A DNA stretch of 41,537 nucleotides from Methanosarcinales archaeon (GTDB taxonomy: Archaea; Halobacteriota; Methanosarcinia; Methanosarcinales; Methanocomedenaceae): NCBI GenBank assembly GCA_021108405.1, contig JAIOQW010000090.1, positions 1 through 41,537 of the forward strand. Reading direction: 5' to 3'. The notes under the pieces are model-generated. The model was given only the letters and a program-made list of their open reading frames with translations, was not told the origin of the DNA and made no database searches. This document shows positions 10,240 through 20,403 of the stretch, piece by piece (position 1 is the stretch's first letter; each line of letters opens with the position of its first letter). The translations under genes were made by a program, and so were the position numbers.

Positions 10240-11025
10240 TTAATCAGTCAGTTCCCTAAGTCTCTTATCAGTAAGAGGTTCAGGCTCACAGCCCGTATCA
10301 CGCTCCATAATAGCTCTGGCAAGTCTTCTATACACACCTGCAATTTCACTATCCGGTTCCTTCTCAATAACAGAATATCCAGCTCTCTCACATGTCTGGA
10401 CAATAGGATCCTTAGGAATAAATGCCAGTAATTCACTTCCTAATTCCTTTGCAAAGGCACTGACTATAGCCTCTTCATTTAAAGCATTCCTGCTGTTGCA
10501 GATAACACCATACAATTGATTATTCAGCCTGGCAAATCCCTTGCAAATATTATTTGCCGCATACAACGGCATATATTCCCCTGATGTCAGCACATACGTT
10601 TCATTGACCAGACCTTTACGTATCGGAGCAGCAAACCCGCCGCATACGATATCCCCCGGCACATCATAAATAACAAGATCGCTGTCGGTCATAACAGAGG
10701 ATTTCTTTTGCAGCATCTTTATAGCTACAATGATACCTCTACCTGCACACCCTATACCTGGCTCAGGTCCGCCCACTTCCACACATTTTACTCCTTTATA
10801 ACCTTCAAACACCACATCGGGTTCTGTTATATCCACGCCTTGCTGCAACAGTTCCATAACTGTAGGGATGCGCTTTCCTCCAAGCAGGGTGATAGATGAA
10901 TCACTCTTTGGGTCACAGCCAAATATAGCCACTTTATATCCTTCATCAGCACAGGCTGCAGCAATATTTGATGCAGTACTGCTCTTGCCAATACCTCCCT
11001 TTCCATAGATTGCTATCTGCTTTAT
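10240..11025 (-). CDS. cfbC: Ni-sirohydrochlorin a,c-diamide reductive cyclase, NifH-like reductase subunit CfbC
   Basis: CfbC is the ATP-dependent iron-sulfur electron donor to CfbD in F430 synthesis. The frame gives a complete NifH-like protein only if it starts upstream of the GTG at 10932: the P-loop GKGGIGKSS (residues 8-16) lies between that GTG and the start of the frame. Cys93 (GIGCAGRG) and Cys128 (DIVCGGF) are the expected ligands of the bridging 4Fe-4S cluster. The best start is an ATA at 11025-11023, six bases after a strong AAGGAGGG, giving 261 residues beginning [12 protein letters not shown]. No ATG, GTG or TTG precedes the P-loop in frame. ATA overlaps the TAA of cfbD (ATAA), where most archaeal operons would show ATGA. 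Last gene of the operon. Confidence 0.93.
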
Positions 11026-12152
11026 ATTGATCCCTCCTTTGCAATTTCCCGCAGTGTAGCTCCGAACTCGGACTCTACGATATGACTGACGCCCAGCGTC
11101 TTCGGATGCAGATCAATTTCTACAATAACATGATCATGTCCCATTTCTTTTAGGGGCAGTACCTGTCTTGGTCCGTTTGTAACTGAGAATATTTCCATGC
11201 CCTGCAGATTATCCATAGAAATGGCATGTGGTACACCTGTGATCACAGCAAAATCAAAATCATTATATTTTTCCTTAATAAGCCTGTTGACCGTGTCGTT
11301 CACTACTGGATATTCGTCAAGTCCACCTATGATCTCATGTACAGTAATTCCCATATCCTGTAGATCACCGGCAATATTTCTTGCATGCGCCCTGACCCTG
11401 TCAAGTCCAAGAGTATCATCAAGATTTGCCATATTGATCAGTTCCGATCCTGATTGTAGCATGCTCGCAGCCTGGTTCACTGCCGCATTGATATCAGCGA
11501 ACATATATCCTGTCTCCTTTTTAGCATTAAGGATAGTAATACCTTTTTTACCCTGTTCTAATAACTCGATGATCCTTTTGGCGACGGTATATTTTGTATC
11601 GCCGCGGCTGGGTTCCAGATATTCCTTACTGGCTGCACCATGACGTTTCTCTACTTCAGTAGCCTCTTTTAATAATACTTTTTGGCGTGTGAACTCTTCA
11701 TTGCTAAGGATGCCTGAAGCCAGTGCGGATTCCAGTGTAATGATCACTCCTTTGGTATTGTCAGGATATCCGGCATGTACTTCCACTTCTATCACCGGTA
11801 CATCAGGATTAACCTCAAGTACAGCCTCGTGAAGTTCCTCACCGATTATCATACTGGCACATGTACCTACGATCCCTATTGATCCCGGATTGAACATCTC
11901 AATGACCTTCTCAAGCACATTTACCAGTTGATCATGCCCTCCGAATACAAAACCCGACTCATCCAGGGCTGTAGTAACCACACGCAGTCCGTCCTCTTCC
12001 AGGAGTCTGGCGTGTTTAAAACTGCATCCGGGAGGACCATGCAGTATGACAACATCAACATTGAGATCACGTAATGTGTATAGTGCAGCTACAATAGAAC
12101 TGGGCCTGGGGTGCATGATAATAGGTTCCTTGGGTTTTACTACTGGGTTCAT
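11022..12152 (-). CDS. cfbD: Ni-sirohydrochlorin a,c-diamide reductive cyclase, NifD-like catalytic subunit CfbD
   Basis: A 376-residue NifD-like protein. CfbD binds a 4Fe-4S cluster and, fed electrons by CfbC, reduces Ni-sirohydrochlorin a,c-diamide to a hexahydro derivative and closes the lactam ring, giving 15,17(3)-seco-F430-17(3)-acid. Visible conserved features are [19 protein letters not shown] at the N-terminus, the cysteines in [11 protein letters not shown] (about 45) and [11 protein letters not shown] (about 98), and the C-terminal [11 protein letters not shown]. The ATG at 12152 follows a GGAGG by eight bases and lies 16 bases after cfbE. Its stop overlaps the apparent start of cfbC. 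No NifK-like partner gene is present, in line with the homomeric CfbD known from methanogens. Confidence 0.93.
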
Positions 12153-14751: not shown

Positions 14752-15280
14752 GTTTTTTTCATGTTTTTTCCGTCGCTTTATGTAAAACCCGACATATAGG
14801 CATAGCTTACACTAACAGAGTCAGTGATACCAGACTGGTCGAAACAAGTAACTGCTAAATTTTTTGCAGTTACGTGAGTATATAATCCTGTGGAATATTT
14901 GCAGTTAAGAAAAACATAAATATGTTTCCTTAATTATATTAATAGAATAATATTTATAATATATATACTTTCCTACTTTTTTTATGATGATGGCGATCAT
15001 TATTATCGGTTTTTTTTATGTTGCTATTAAAAAAAAGGAAATTGTTCAGTTGAACTTCATTTGTGATCAGTTAAGGAATTTTAATCTGTGTTAATCTGTG
15101 TCTGAAAAAAAGCTTTCAGACTCTATCAAGATTACTTTCCATTCTATAGAAAGTGTAATCCGAGATAAGAATCGTAAGCAATTTACACTTTCTTGTTAGA
15201 ATTTATTTGTTTAGACACAGATTTACACAGATTTCACAAGAGGCAATACTTCTTTATATATTCAAGTGTAAAACAATACA
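14752..15280. other. intergenic region, promoter of the peptidase gene and a repeat
   Basis: No gene is visible. The part next to the peptidase start is AT-rich and repeats tttttcatg. Positions 15082-15233 are a dispersed element (listed separately). A run of weak TATA-like stretches lies at 14940-14970. Confidence 0.5.
15082..15233 (+). repeat. AATCTGTG-ended dispersed element, copy 1
   Basis: The element starts AATCTGTGTTAATCTGTGTC and ends CACAGATTTACACAGATT, so its ends are inverted repeats made of the 10-base unit AATCTGTGTT. The interior includes GCTTTCAGACTCTATCAAGA and AAGTGTAATCC. An inverted copy lies at 22406-22554 and a partial one at 22731-22785. It carries no open frame and could be a non-autonomous mobile element. 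Confidence 0.7.
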
Positions 15281-15457
15281 AGAAAATGCTCACTTCATTC
15301 GCATTTACTTGAGATATGTTTTATTAAATATATACAGCAAGAAAATATTCACTTCGTTCGCATTTACTTGAGATATGTTTTATTAAATATATACAGCAAG
15401 AAAATATTCACTTCATTCGCATTTACTTGAGATATATTTTATTAAATATATACAGCA
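15281..15457 (+). repeat. three tandem copies of a 59-bp unit upstream of the AglD-like operon
   Basis: Copies are 15281-15339, 15340-15398 and 15399-15457, differing at only a few bases. Each contains a segment like CACTTCGTTCGCATTTAC, related to the hairpin repeats elsewhere in the window, and then TTTTATTAAATATATAC, a strong archaeal TATA-box candidate. The last copy ends 23 bases before the start of the glycosyltransferase gene, so this could be a triplicated promoter. Confidence 0.85.
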
Positions 15458-15467
15458 AGAGAAAATC

Positions 15468-15480
15468 AGGAGGATCAGCC
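15468..15480 (+). promoter_or_regulatory. Shine-Dalgarno sequence that sets an AUU start
   Basis: AGGAGG at 15468-15473 is followed by seven bases and then ATT (15481). It is the only strong ribosome-binding site near the gene start, and there is no ATG, GTG or TTG between it and the conserved beginning of the protein. Confidence 0.7.
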
Positions 15481-17220
15481 ATTACTATTGAAGTTTCACT
15501 TGTATTACCAGCCTATAACGAAGCCGATCGTATTAAGGATACTGTTACCACTACGGCTGAAACGCTATCCGGTATAACCGATTCCTATGAGATCATCATT
15601 GCCGAAGACGGCAGTACTGATGGAACTGAGAGTATTGCATCTCAATTAGCTGAAGAACTGGATTATGTGATACACCTGCATAGTGATCTCAGACAGGGGA
15701 GGGGGACGGCACTTAATCGTGCCTTTAAGGCATCAAGTGGGAGAATATTGTGCTACATCGACGTAGATCTGGCCACGGACATGGTTCATTTACGTGAACT
15801 TATCGAAGCTATCAGAACAGAAGATTATGATTTTTCTACAGGCTCCAGAATGATGCCCTCCAGTGATGTCAAACGATCTGCAAAGCGTGGTTTTGCATCA
15901 AAGGGTTTTAATTTTTTCACACGCAGCTTATTAAGTTCCGGATTATATGACCATCAATGCGGGTTTAAGGCTTTTAAACGTGAATCTCTAATGTCACTCA
16001 TTGATTCAGTAGAGGATAAACACTGGTTCTGGGATACTGAAGTACTGATAAGGGCCCAGCATACTGGCTATAAAATAAAGGAATTCCCTGTCAAGTGGCG
16101 ACATGGCGGAGCTACTAAAGTAGACCTGGTCAAGGATGTATTCGGCATGGGGAGCCAGATAATCAGGCTGTGGTGGCAATTGAAGGGATCACATGTCGGT
16201 GGTAATCGTAAGATCATTCTTGCATTTATTTTATCAGTGATACTGCTGACCCTGATATTCATAATAGTTGGTATAGAAGATGTCTGGCATGCAATTGTAT
16301 CAGTGTCCCCTATTATAGTAGGAATAGCAGTATTGATCTACCTATTATCCTGGCCCATAAGGGGGCTGAGATATAAACACATACTAAGCCAGTTAGATTA
16401 TAATAAAAGCCTGAACTTTATCACAGGCTCAATATTTATCAGTCAATCAGCTAATGTTATCCTTCCGGCTCGTATAGGTGATATTACCAGGCCATATATT
16501 CTTAAGAAGAAAAAAAAAATACCCCTGACCACTGGCATGTCCTCGATAGCTATTGAAAGGATATTTGATATTATCGCTATTACAGTTATTGGAATACTGT
16601 CGGTATTGATAGTGATGGGGGAGATGTCAATAGATGACTGGGTGATACCGGTTATGCTCTCTTCTGTTACTGTAATAATAATATTCTTTTGCGCTATTTT
16701 CTTTTTTGCATCTAAAGGAAAAGATGGATTATCACCAATCGAGCGTATTAGCAAACGATTCTTAAGACCAGGCGATCGTACTGACAAAATAGTAAATATT
16801 GCCGAAAAGTTTGTTGAAGAGATATATATTATATCAACAAATCCAAAGAGTTTTTTAGTAGTTTCTTTTTCTTCACTATTGATCTGGAGTGTGGATATTG
16901 CTACTTGTTATATAGTACTTATGGCATTTCCATCTGTTCAAAATACCGTATCTCATATAACTTTAATAGCAGTAGTATTCCTGGCAGTAGCAGTAGGTAA
17001 CCTTGTAAAGATGATTCCCACAACCCCGGGTGGTATTGGTACATATGAAAGTGCCCTAACAGTAGTATTGTGCATTGCCGGCATCCCGCCACATATAAGT
17101 GCTGCTGCTGCTGTGATAGATCATTTTATTAAGAATTCCATTACATTAGTATTTGGTGTACTATATCTTATTTCCTTTAATATGAACTGGCGTGAAGTGT
17201 TGAAAATAAAAGATGAGTAG
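15481..17220 (+). CDS. AglD-like glycosyltransferase: GT2 domain fused to an LPG-synthase/flippase-like membrane domain
   Basis: Residues 1-235 are a family 2 glycosyltransferase (VSLVLPAYNEADRI, EDGSTDG, DxD-type CYIDVDLATD, FWDTEVLIRA). Residues 245-575 are a membrane domain of the UPF0104/lysylphosphatidylglycerol-synthase type. The same two-part architecture is seen in Haloferax AglD, which adds a hexose to dolichol phosphate for S-layer N-glycosylation. The start is unusual. ATT at 15481, seven bases after AGGAGG, gives 579 residues beginning TIEVSLVLPAYNE. The nearest standard start is a TTG at 15427 that lies inside the 59-bp promoter-like repeat and lacks a Shine-Dalgarno sequence. 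A second ATT at 15487 is the alternative. First gene of a three-gene operon. Confidence 0.88.
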   Translation: MTIEVSLVLPAYNEADRIKDTVTTTAETLSGITDSYEIIIAEDGSTDGTESIASQLAEELDYVIHLHSDLRQGRGTALNRAFKASSGRILCYIDVDLATDMVHLRELIEAIRTEDYDFSTGSRMMPSSDVKRSAKRGFASKGFNFFTRSLLSSGLYDHQCGFKAFKRESLMSLIDSVEDKHWFWDTEVLIRAQHTGYKIKEFPVKWRHGGATKVDLVKDVFGMGSQIIRLWWQLKGSHVGGNRKIILAFILSVILLTLIFIIVGIEDVWHAIVSVSPIIVGIAVLIYLLSWPIRGLRYKHILSQLDYNKSLNFITGSIFISQSANVILPARIGDITRPYILKKKKKIPLTTGMSSIAIERIFDIIAITVIGILSVLIVMGEMSIDDWVIPVMLSSVTVIIIFFCAIFFFASKGKDGLSPIERISKRFLRPGDRTDKIVNIAEKFVEEIYIISTNPKSFLVVSFSSLLIWSVDIATCYIVLMAFPSVQNTVSHITLIAVVFLAVAVGNLVKMIPTTPGGIGTYESALTVVLCIAGIPPHISAAAAVIDHFIKNSITLVFGVLYLISFNMNWREVLKIKDE

Positions 17221-17225
17221 AATGT

Positions 17226-19433
17226 ATGGAATGGTTTGAAGTATTAAAATGGTGGCTGGTCCTTGAAATAATAGGATTTGCAGCAATTCCGCTAACTGCC
17301 TGGGTATTTCGGAATATGGCTGGTAAAGGTTTATCCCTTTCGAAGATCCTGGGTCTCATGCTTATAACTTACTTTTCATGGGTACTGACACACCTGGGCT
17401 GTAGCTACGGCAATACAACTGTTGGAATTTCATTATTATTGGTGATCGCTGCATCATTGATAGTATTATCACGATATGGGTACTCCTTTGATAAAAAAGA
17501 ATTTATCACGACTGAGCTGCTGTTCACAGCAGCCTTCCTGTGCTTTGTTGTTTTACGGGCTTATTGTCCACAGATTTACTGGACCGGTGGTGAAAAGTTA
17601 ATGGATATGAGTTTTATTAACATAATATTACGCAGCACCAGCTTTCCACCTATGGATCCCTGGCTCTCGGGTGAGCCGATGCAGTACTACTATTTCGGAT
17701 ATCTGGCAGCTGCTAATCTTATTAAGCTATCTTTTGTACCTCCTACGATCGGGTTTAACCTGGGAGTAGCTTCCATGTTCGCCTTATCCGCAACTGCAGC
17801 TTATGGGATCGGTAGGGATCTGACTCATAGCAAGGTCTTTGGGATAGTTATTATGGCATTTGTAGTGATCCTCGGTAACTTAGCAGGTTTCTTACAACTT
17901 ATAGTAATACTATTCATTCCAAAATATTACTATATTTTCAATGTACCTGATGTGGATCTCTGGGGACGGTTAAGCACTTATTACTACTGGTCTTCCAGCA
18001 GGGTGATCCCGGATACTATTAATGAATTTCCTTACTTTAGTTTTATCCATGGTGATCTTCATGCCCATATGATAGGCATTGCCTTCCAATTACTAATGAT
18101 CGCATTACTGTTTCACCTGCTTCGCCAAAAAAAGGAATGGCATATTCCCACACTTGCCATGATCACTCTTTTGTTGGGGTTCATGTTCCTTATTAATTCA
18201 TGGGATTATCCTACTTATGCTGTTTTTTTTATAATTGTCCTGGCAGCATGGAGGATACGGGTTCTTGCTGCAAGTAAAAATATTCAGGGCTTTACCGAAA
18301 GAGCCTTAAATCTGCCTGTAATGGAACTACTTAAAATAATAGGTGTAGGAGCCGGTGTGGGAATGTGCAGCATTGTGCTGTATCTACCATACCATTTAAA
18401 TGCCGGTATGTCCCATCCTCTTTGTCTGGTTACTTACGGCCAGACTCAATTATTCTTTTATCTTGGTGTGTTCGGCATAATGCTTATTCTTATTATGCTA
18501 TTTGTCATTCTTAATGTATGTGATATGTATTATCCGGATATGAAGATCATACTCACAGGACTTGCAATAACAATGATAGCAGCATACTTGACCGATATCC
18601 AGATACTCATCATCATTCTGCCACTTATTATTATGTCGATCTATTGCCTGATAAAAGAAAAAGAACCAAATCTTCAGTTCATACATCTTTTGATACTGTT
18701 CGGTGCTTTACTTTCCCTATTCTGTGAATTGTTCTATATTCAGGATTCCTTCGGTATCTACTCACCACAATACATCAGGTTTAATACTGTTTTTAAGATC
18801 TATATCCAGAACTGGATCGTCTGGGCTCTGGCAGCAGGGGTTTCTTACTATTATCTATGGCAAAGAATAAACACATCAGATAAACGCAACTTAATGTTTG
18901 CAGTGGCATTGGTTTTATTAATTCTGGGTGCAATGTCTTATCCTGTATTTGCCACATATTCCCGCAGCCACCAATTTGATGGGGAACCCACTCTTGATGG
19001 TGTTGTTTATCTTGCGCAGCAATACCCCAATGAATTTAATGCAATACAATGGCTTAATAATATAAGTGGTACGCCGGTAGTACTTCAGAGTCCGGGACAA
19101 ACATATAAACTAAATACCCATATTACAGCTTTTACAGGTCTACCTACTGTAATTGGCTGGGCCGGTCATGAGAAGAACTGGAGGAATAGAGCCAGGACAA
19201 TTGATGAACGGTGGTCCCAGGTCCCTAAAGTCTATACATCTGACGATATTAATGAAGTGGACCGGATACTTATTAAATATCAAGTAGATTATATCTATAT
19301 AGGTGAAGTGGAGGAAGAACGATACCATGGCCATAATGCCAGAAGGCTCTTTGAGAATTATCCAGATAGGTTTGAACTGGTATACCACAATCCCAATGTC
19401 CATATTTATAAGGTGATAGAACAGGATGCCTGA
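17226..19433 (+). CDS. DUF2298 (Chlor_Arch_YYY) polytopic membrane protein, GT-C-like
   Basis: A 735-residue protein with about fifteen hydrophobic segments. It has the motif that names the family, GEPMQYYYFGYLAAAN (about residue 150), an FSFIHGDLHAHMI segment (about 275) and a soluble C-terminal part (about 590-735). The family resembles GT-C glycosyltransferases that use polyprenyl-phosphate sugars on the outer side of the membrane; the exact reaction is unknown. Its ATG is five bases after the AglD-like gene, and its end overlaps the next gene by eight bases, so all three form one operon likely devoted to surface protein or lipid glycosylation. Confidence 0.85.
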   Translation: MEWFEVLKWWLVLEIIGFAAIPLTAWVFRNMAGKGLSLSKILGLMLITYFSWVLTHLGCSYGNTTVGISLLLVIAASLIVLSRYGYSFDKKEFITTELLFTAAFLCFVVLRAYCPQIYWTGGEKLMDMSFINIILRSTSFPPMDPWLSGEPMQYYYFGYLAAANLIKLSFVPPTIGFNLGVASMFALSATAAYGIGRDLTHSKVFGIVIMAFVVILGNLAGFLQLIVILFIPKYYYIFNVPDVDLWGRLSTYYYWSSSRVIPDTINEFPYFSFIHGDLHAHMIGIAFQLLMIALLFHLLRQKKEWHIPTLAMITLLLGFMFLINSWDYPTYAVFFIIVLAAWRIRVLAASKNIQGFTERALNLPVMELLKIIGVGAGVGMCSIVLYLPYHLNAGMSHPLCLVTYGQTQLFFYLGVFGIMLILIMLFVILNVCDMYYPDMKIILTGLAITMIAAYLTDIQILIIILPLIIMSIYCLIKEKEPNLQFIHLLILFGALLSLFCELFYIQDSFGIYSPQYIRFNTVFKIYIQNWIVWALAAGVSYYYLWQRINTSDKRNLMFAVALVLLILGAMSYPVFATYSRSHQFDGEPTLDGVVYLAQQYPNEFNAIQWLNNISGTPVVLQSPGQTYKLNTHITAFTGLPTVIGWAGHEKNWRNRARTIDERWSQVPKVYTSDDINEVDRILIKYQVDYIYIGEVEEERYHGHNARRLFENYPDRFELVYHNPNVHIYKVIEQDA

Positions 19434-20403
19434 TATAGAACAGCCCGGATCTCCAATTAGCAAGCTCACTGAGCCAAGGACTATTATTTCATTCATCATT
19501 GCTATAATTTTACTTTATTTTTTATTTTTACAAGTTGATCTTAGAATCATAATTGAGGTTATAAAAGAAGCAAATTTAATTTACGTTGCTGCTGCCGCAT
19601 GTGTCTATTTCGGCTCACTTCCTGTACGTGGTATGCGGTGGAAATTACTGCTTGATAATGTTAGAGTGAAAACATCAGTGAGTGATGTTAGTGAAATATA
19701 CTTACTGGGCTGGTTTGCCAATTGTCTTATACCTGCTAAGATGGGGGATGTATATAGGGCATATCTTGCAAAAAAAACATGGGGATTACCAATTTCAAAA
19801 GGATATAGTACAATATATATTGAACGCATCTATGATGTACTGCTATTGGTATTTCTAATGGGTATCTCCAGTATCCTGGTATTTGGTATGGATATTCCAC
19901 CTGAGATACGGTTTGCACTGGCAGCGGGTTTTTTAATTGTGAGCATCCTCATAACATCAATTATAGTGTTCTCATCAGGAAAAACAGCTATTTCCAATAG
20001 ACTTCCATCAAGGATCAAACAGATTTTCATTCGTTTTACAGAAGGACTGCAGGAATCATCCGGAAGAAAGTATATGTCGTTAATAATATTATTTACAGTA
20101 TTAATGTGGGCTATGGAAATCGCTCGCCTGTACTTTGTGGTAGAGTCACTCTCTTCGATCGGCAATTTTAGCATAAGCATATCAGTGATCATATTTGTGG
20201 CATTATCTTCATCGCTGCTTTCAGCATTACCTATTACACCGGGTGGACTGGGTGCTGTGGAATTTGCCATTATGGGAATATTATTGTTAGTAGGTCTGGA
20301 TAGCGGGATATCAGCCAGTATTGCCATACTTGATAGAGCCATCAGTTACTGGGGTTTGGTTATAGCAGGAGGTGTGGTATATATCTTTAGTAAAAAGAAA
20401 TAA
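19426..20403 (+). CDS. UPF0104 / lysylphosphatidylglycerol-synthase-type membrane protein (flippase-like)
   Basis: A 325-residue membrane protein with eight or so helices and family signatures RGMRWKLLL, CLIPAKMGDVYRAYL, a YIERIYD segment and ITPGGLGAVEFAI. It corresponds to the C-terminal half of the AglD-like protein two genes upstream (compare LPARIGDITRPYIL and IPTTPGGIGTYESAL), so the operon holds two paralogous membrane domains. A flippase or lipid-handling role is often proposed for the family. The ATG at 19426 lies within the end of the DUF2298 gene. Confidence 0.85.
   Translation: MPDIEQPGSPISKLTEPRTIISFIIAIILLYFLFLQVDLRIIIEVIKEANLIYVAAAACVYFGSLPVRGMRWKLLLDNVRVKTSVSDVSEIYLLGWFANCLIPAKMGDVYRAYLAKKTWGLPISKGYSTIYIERIYDVLLLVFLMGISSILVFGMDIPPEIRFALAAGFLIVSILITSIIVFSSGKTAISNRLPSRIKQIFIRFTEGLQESSGRKYMSLIILFTVLMWAMEIARLYFVVESLSSIGNFSISISVIIFVALSSSLLSALPITPGGLGAVEFAIMGILLLVGLDSGISASIAILDRAISYWGLVIAGGVVYIFSKKK

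Follow-up and report, generated by a model that had tools for sequence, protein, structure and literature searches.

The bacterial infC gene begins with ATT in E. coli and with ATC in Streptomyces, codons that, like those described below, depart from AUG at the third position. The archaeal initiation-factor set differs from the bacterial one, with aIF1 rather than IF3. In Sulfolobus, aIF1 favours discrimination against non-canonical starts (PMC6237735). AUU starts were recorded among bacterial and archaeal genes by Belinky et al. 2017 (PMC5622118), who called AUU genes few and found one AUG-to-AUU switch among 61,358 reconstructed AUG starts, such starts being reported as very rare; that survey rests on existing annotation and, we infer, would tend to miss cases such as those reported here. 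For unannotated small ORFs of M. mazei, a Ribo-seq study reports ATG, TTG, GTG and CTG as starts (PMC11456600). Our literature search found no report of AUH starts (AUA, AUU or AUC) for these archaea.

The window, by which we mean the whole analysed stretch of 41,537 nucleotides, is part of a draft genome (G000; 3.67 Mb, 363 contigs). It carries a perfect AGGAGG Shine-Dalgarno (SD) sequence (15468..15473, + strand), followed by the 7-nt spacer ATCAGCC and by ATT-ACT-ATT-GAA from position 15481, the point at which homology to relatives begins. The frame read from this ATT (start codon 15481..15483, coding sequence 15481..17220, +) encodes 579 residues with a Glycos_transf_2 (GT2) domain at the N-terminus (PF00535, 97.4 bits, cut-off 23.3) and an LPG_synthase_TM membrane region (PF03706, 176.8 bits, cut-off 33.4). 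By these domain matches the product is an AglD-like GT2 glycosyltransferase with a C-terminal LPG_synthase_TM region, whose sugar transfer in protein N-glycosylation is putative. A gene for a DUF2298 membrane protein comes next, and 3' of it lies a second protein (19426-20403) that resembles the membrane half of this enzyme (31% identity over query 244-565). Upstream of the ATT, the frame stays open back to TAA at 15325, and the only standard start codon between that stop and 15481 is TTG 15427; downstream, the first in-frame ATG, GTG or TTG is GTG 15667 (codon +62), which falls after the catalytic motifs LVLPAYNE and EDGSTDGT. The gene has no usable ATG, GTG or TTG at its conserved N-terminus and no SD-supported standard start. 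AGGAGG occurs 14 times in the window on both strands, and in two of these cases an ATH codon follows 7 nt later, at the conserved N-terminus of a long gene in which no standard start has SD support; the two genes are the glycosyltransferase and cfbC.

In the family of this archaeon, the codon at the glycosyltransferase start is ATT in all 14 genomes with a readable start, which represent four genera. Upstream sequence is available for 13 of them, since in G001 the gene starts at a contig edge, and an SD core precedes the ATT in each of the 13 (AGGAG in 12, GGAG in G016). From the AGGAG core to the ATT the distance is 8 nt in most family genomes and 10 in G003. This agreement exceeds chance, and codon identity is not a general property of the isoleucine positions of the protein: among 22 other all-Ile columns, 19 mix codons and 3 use a single codon. 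Outside the family the start is mixed, with ATA, ATT or ATC candidates in some members of families f5 and f2 while other members have ATG or GTG; at named loci of other archaea, standard starts prevail. The initial annotation had read AUU, 7 nt behind a perfect AGGAGG and directly at the conserved beginning, as the apparent start of this gene, and this observation is confirmed. On comparative grounds it is close to certain that the glycosyltransferase begins at AUU 15481, although experiment has yet to prove it.

The second gene of the window, cfbC (10240..11025, - strand, 261 codons plus stop), was identified by the profile NF033200 F430_CfbC (405.8 bits, over the cut-off), whose position 1 aligns with CfbC residue 2. 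Its AUA start codon (11023..11025, -) overlaps the cfbD stop in ATATAA and follows by 7 nt an AGGAGG (11033..11038, -) that lies within the end of cfbD. That cfbC shares the anomaly, as had been claimed, is supported by G001, the nearest genome and the other one of the genus, which has ATA at the same place. In the 12 other family genomes read, this codon is GTG (11) or ATG (1), behind GGAGG-type SDs.

The widest distribution was found for rfcS, encoding the replication factor C small subunit. Its start codon is AUH in 16 of 16 genomes of the own family (AUA in 10, AUU in 6) and in three of three genomes of f2 (AUC, AUC, AUU). In f4, which we infer to be Methanosarcinaceae, 30 genomes have AUA (13), AUU (9) or AUG (8) at the same codon, hence AUH in 22. 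The AUH codons of these three families stand nearly all behind GGAGG-type SDs. AUC is the rfcS start in three more distant genomes, two of the same class and one of the same phylum, while f3 has TTG in three genomes and ATA in one and f5 has ATG one codon upstream. Half of the f4 AUH cases (11 of 22) have an in-frame ATG or TTG upstream, and the other 11 have no standard codon after the in-frame stop; in the one-contig genome G071, for instance, the codons run TAA-ATA-AAA-GAA-GAG-ATA-TGG. The gene starts with ATT, with ATA just before it, in G000 and with ATA in G002, a genome of a second genus. In G069 (L330), an in-frame ATG overlaps the SD (ATGGAGG) five codons before AUU and is likely an annotation trap. 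AUH starts of rfcS thus appear, from these comparisons, to span most of an archaeal order and to reach three distant genomes, a wider scope than the initial annotation held; as a lineage-wide habit, such starts are well supported for rfcS and suggested for other genes.

Further AUH genes were sought in 836 kb of G000 (about a quarter of the genome) and in 1.55 Mb of G002, by comparing 279 reciprocal best pairs and listing SD-plus-codon sites. Many of the flagged pairs were ordinary ATG genes, whose alignments had extended upstream by chance. Cases were curated if an SD supported the codon and no standard start lay close by; they comprised in G000 rfcS (ATT), an ABC ATPase (ATT), a WbuX-like amidotransferase (ATA), CbiG (ATA), an unnamed protein (ATT) and a cobalt-transporter-like ATPase (ACG), and in G002 rfcS (ATA), the same ABC ATPase (ATT, and so in both genera), an MraY-like gene (ATT), a roadblock-like gene (ATC) and AtwA (ACG), the last two having ATG in their G000 orthologs. 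The refuting condition named by the initial annotation, that no other such genes exist genome-wide, therefore fails, as further SD-plus-AUH genes occur in the sampled quarter of G000 and in the second genus as well. Together with the two window genes, the curated cases of G000 amount to about 1% of the roughly 700 genes that its sample contained; this figure is approximate, having been obtained by inspection and without a matched outgroup. Counting codons behind SD cores gave too much noise to be informative alone. Before the first standard codon, SD plus ATA was found in 8 of 69 cases against an internal background of 38 in 1049, and SD plus ATT in 5 of 69 against 46 in 1049; this bulk excess is only mild, so the genome-wide rate depends on the curated cases. 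Of the two ACG cases, AtwA (L271:11992 in G002; methyl coenzyme M reductase component A2) has this codon behind AGGAGG, and in G000 the cobalt-transporter-like ATPase (L131:16422-17351, -) has ACG 7 nt after GGAGGTG, with the next standard codon 46 codons later.

Very probably, translation of the glycosyltransferase mRNA begins at AUU 15481 through its SD and the normal initiator tRNA-Met, with the third-position mismatch tolerated, an N-terminal Met as the outcome and the same relaxed third position used by other genes of the lineage. The perfect SD would position the small ribosomal subunit at the AUU, and the initiator tRNA-Met (anticodon CAU) would pair with the first two bases and tolerate the mismatch at the third, placing Met at the N-terminus; other genes would use AUU, AUA or AUC in the same way, generally behind a strong SD. 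What is observed is the anatomy of the DNA and its conservation, the absence of usable standard starts and, in relatives, the exchange of AUH with AUG or GUG at one and the same codon; the AUH codons of the glycosyltransferase, cfbC and rfcS are either conserved or swapped for a standard start. Initiation by ribosomes at AUH, insertion of Met and compensation of the weak codon by a strong SD are inferences; there are no transcript, ribosome-profiling or peptide data. In G000, one initiator-type anticodon arm, GGGCTCATAACCC, was found, in a tRNA-Met gene; there was no clear sign in this genome of an initiator tRNA with another anticodon, the other pattern matches being without the initiator-type arm GGGCTCATAACCC. 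Nor was a duplicated or missing aIF1 found, each genome searched, G000 included, having one copy over the cut-off. Relaxed pairing, not a new tRNA, is in our inference the simplest account. RNA editing of A was discarded; it could make AUA AUG-like and cannot account for AUU.

Initiation at AUU by relaxed pairing leaves room for a purpose. The AUH codon might be a regulatory device like that of infC, by which start-codon discrimination, in archaea through aIF1, throttles initiation for low or fidelity-coupled expression; this possibility would add to the preferred explanation and not replace the AUU start. The invariant ATT of the glycosyltransferase speaks for it, as do the bacterial precedents infC and sigR (PMC5472188) and the discrimination by Sulfolobus aIF1. 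Yet among relatives the codon of rfcS and cfbC drifts between AUA, AUU, AUC, AUG and GUG, a pattern closer to tolerance than to a fixed device, and we hold the proposal only tentatively. Low or regulated yield would be a plausible, though conjectural, reason for keeping AUH codons. Equally speculative is a broader possibility, that in Methanosarcinales and some neighbours relaxed third-position start recognition is a standing feature of translation on which an appreciable share of genes relies, the clamp loader among them, and that selection keeps some of the codons as a control of expression that aIF1 reads.

A leaderless or near-leaderless transcript that starts at the AUU or close to it, AGGAG then being promoter DNA and not an SD, is very improbable. 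Some g2 relatives do have a TATA-like stretch whose centre lies about 26 nt ahead of the AUU, so that it is not settled where the glycosyltransferase transcript begins; g1 and g4, however, lack this spacing, while nearly all relatives preserve both AGGAG and its distance to the AUU. For rfcS, promoter-like BRE/TATA elements, read by eye, lie further upstream, about 50-70 nt before the gene, so that the SD is expected on the transcript. Even with a leaderless transcript, AUU would remain the start codon.

Translation of the glycosyltransferase from TTG 15427 (15427..15429, +), which would add 18 residues, is very improbable. It is true that, once past the upstream stop, the frame offers no other standard start before the conserved N-terminus, but this TTG has no SD and, as the initial annotation had noticed, sits within a tandem repeat, more precisely in the third copy of an AT-rich 59-bp repeat (15279..15460; 3.1 copies, 95% match) directly 5' of the gene. 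A standard codon upstream of the ATT is found in three of the 13 family genomes, G000 (TTG), G011 and G012 (both ATG); in the other ten, the stretch from the in-frame stop to the AUU contains no ATG, GTG or TTG, and an N-terminal extension is therefore impossible there. A start at TTG would, moreover, leave the AGGAGG without a role. A sequencing or assembly error hiding a true ATG, conceivable in a draft of 363 contigs, can practically be dismissed, as the initial annotation had argued from two genes, since AUU is kept across four genera in 14 separate genomes, the cfbC ATA in both separate genomes of the genus, and AUH in rfcS of one-contig genomes too.

Gene finders limited to ATG, GTG and TTG would misplace or drop AUH starts, which implies wrong N-termini across a major methane-cycling order, cultured methanogens probably included. 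Conserved AUA or AUU in an essential replication gene, rfcS, also makes archaeal start discrimination (aIF1, SD strength) directly testable in the genetically tractable Methanosarcina.

Compared with the known systems, infC is one gene, autoregulated by IF3 (PMC5472188), whereas the archaeal AUH starts belong to several unrelated genes; these encode a glycosyltransferase, CfbC, RfcS and other proteins, not a start-discriminating initiation factor as infC-type autoregulation would require. The closest proven parallel is Streptomyces sigR, which has a strong SD, an annotated standard start inside that SD and a true, non-canonical start (GTC), a layout like that of rfcS in G069. Unlike the archaeal genes, sigR is bacterial and encodes a regulator, and N-terminal sequencing and mutation have proven its start (PMC5472188). 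On genomic evidence, without expression data, several unrelated genes of these archaea would seem to use non-canonical initiation, for which bacterial infC has been the main example.
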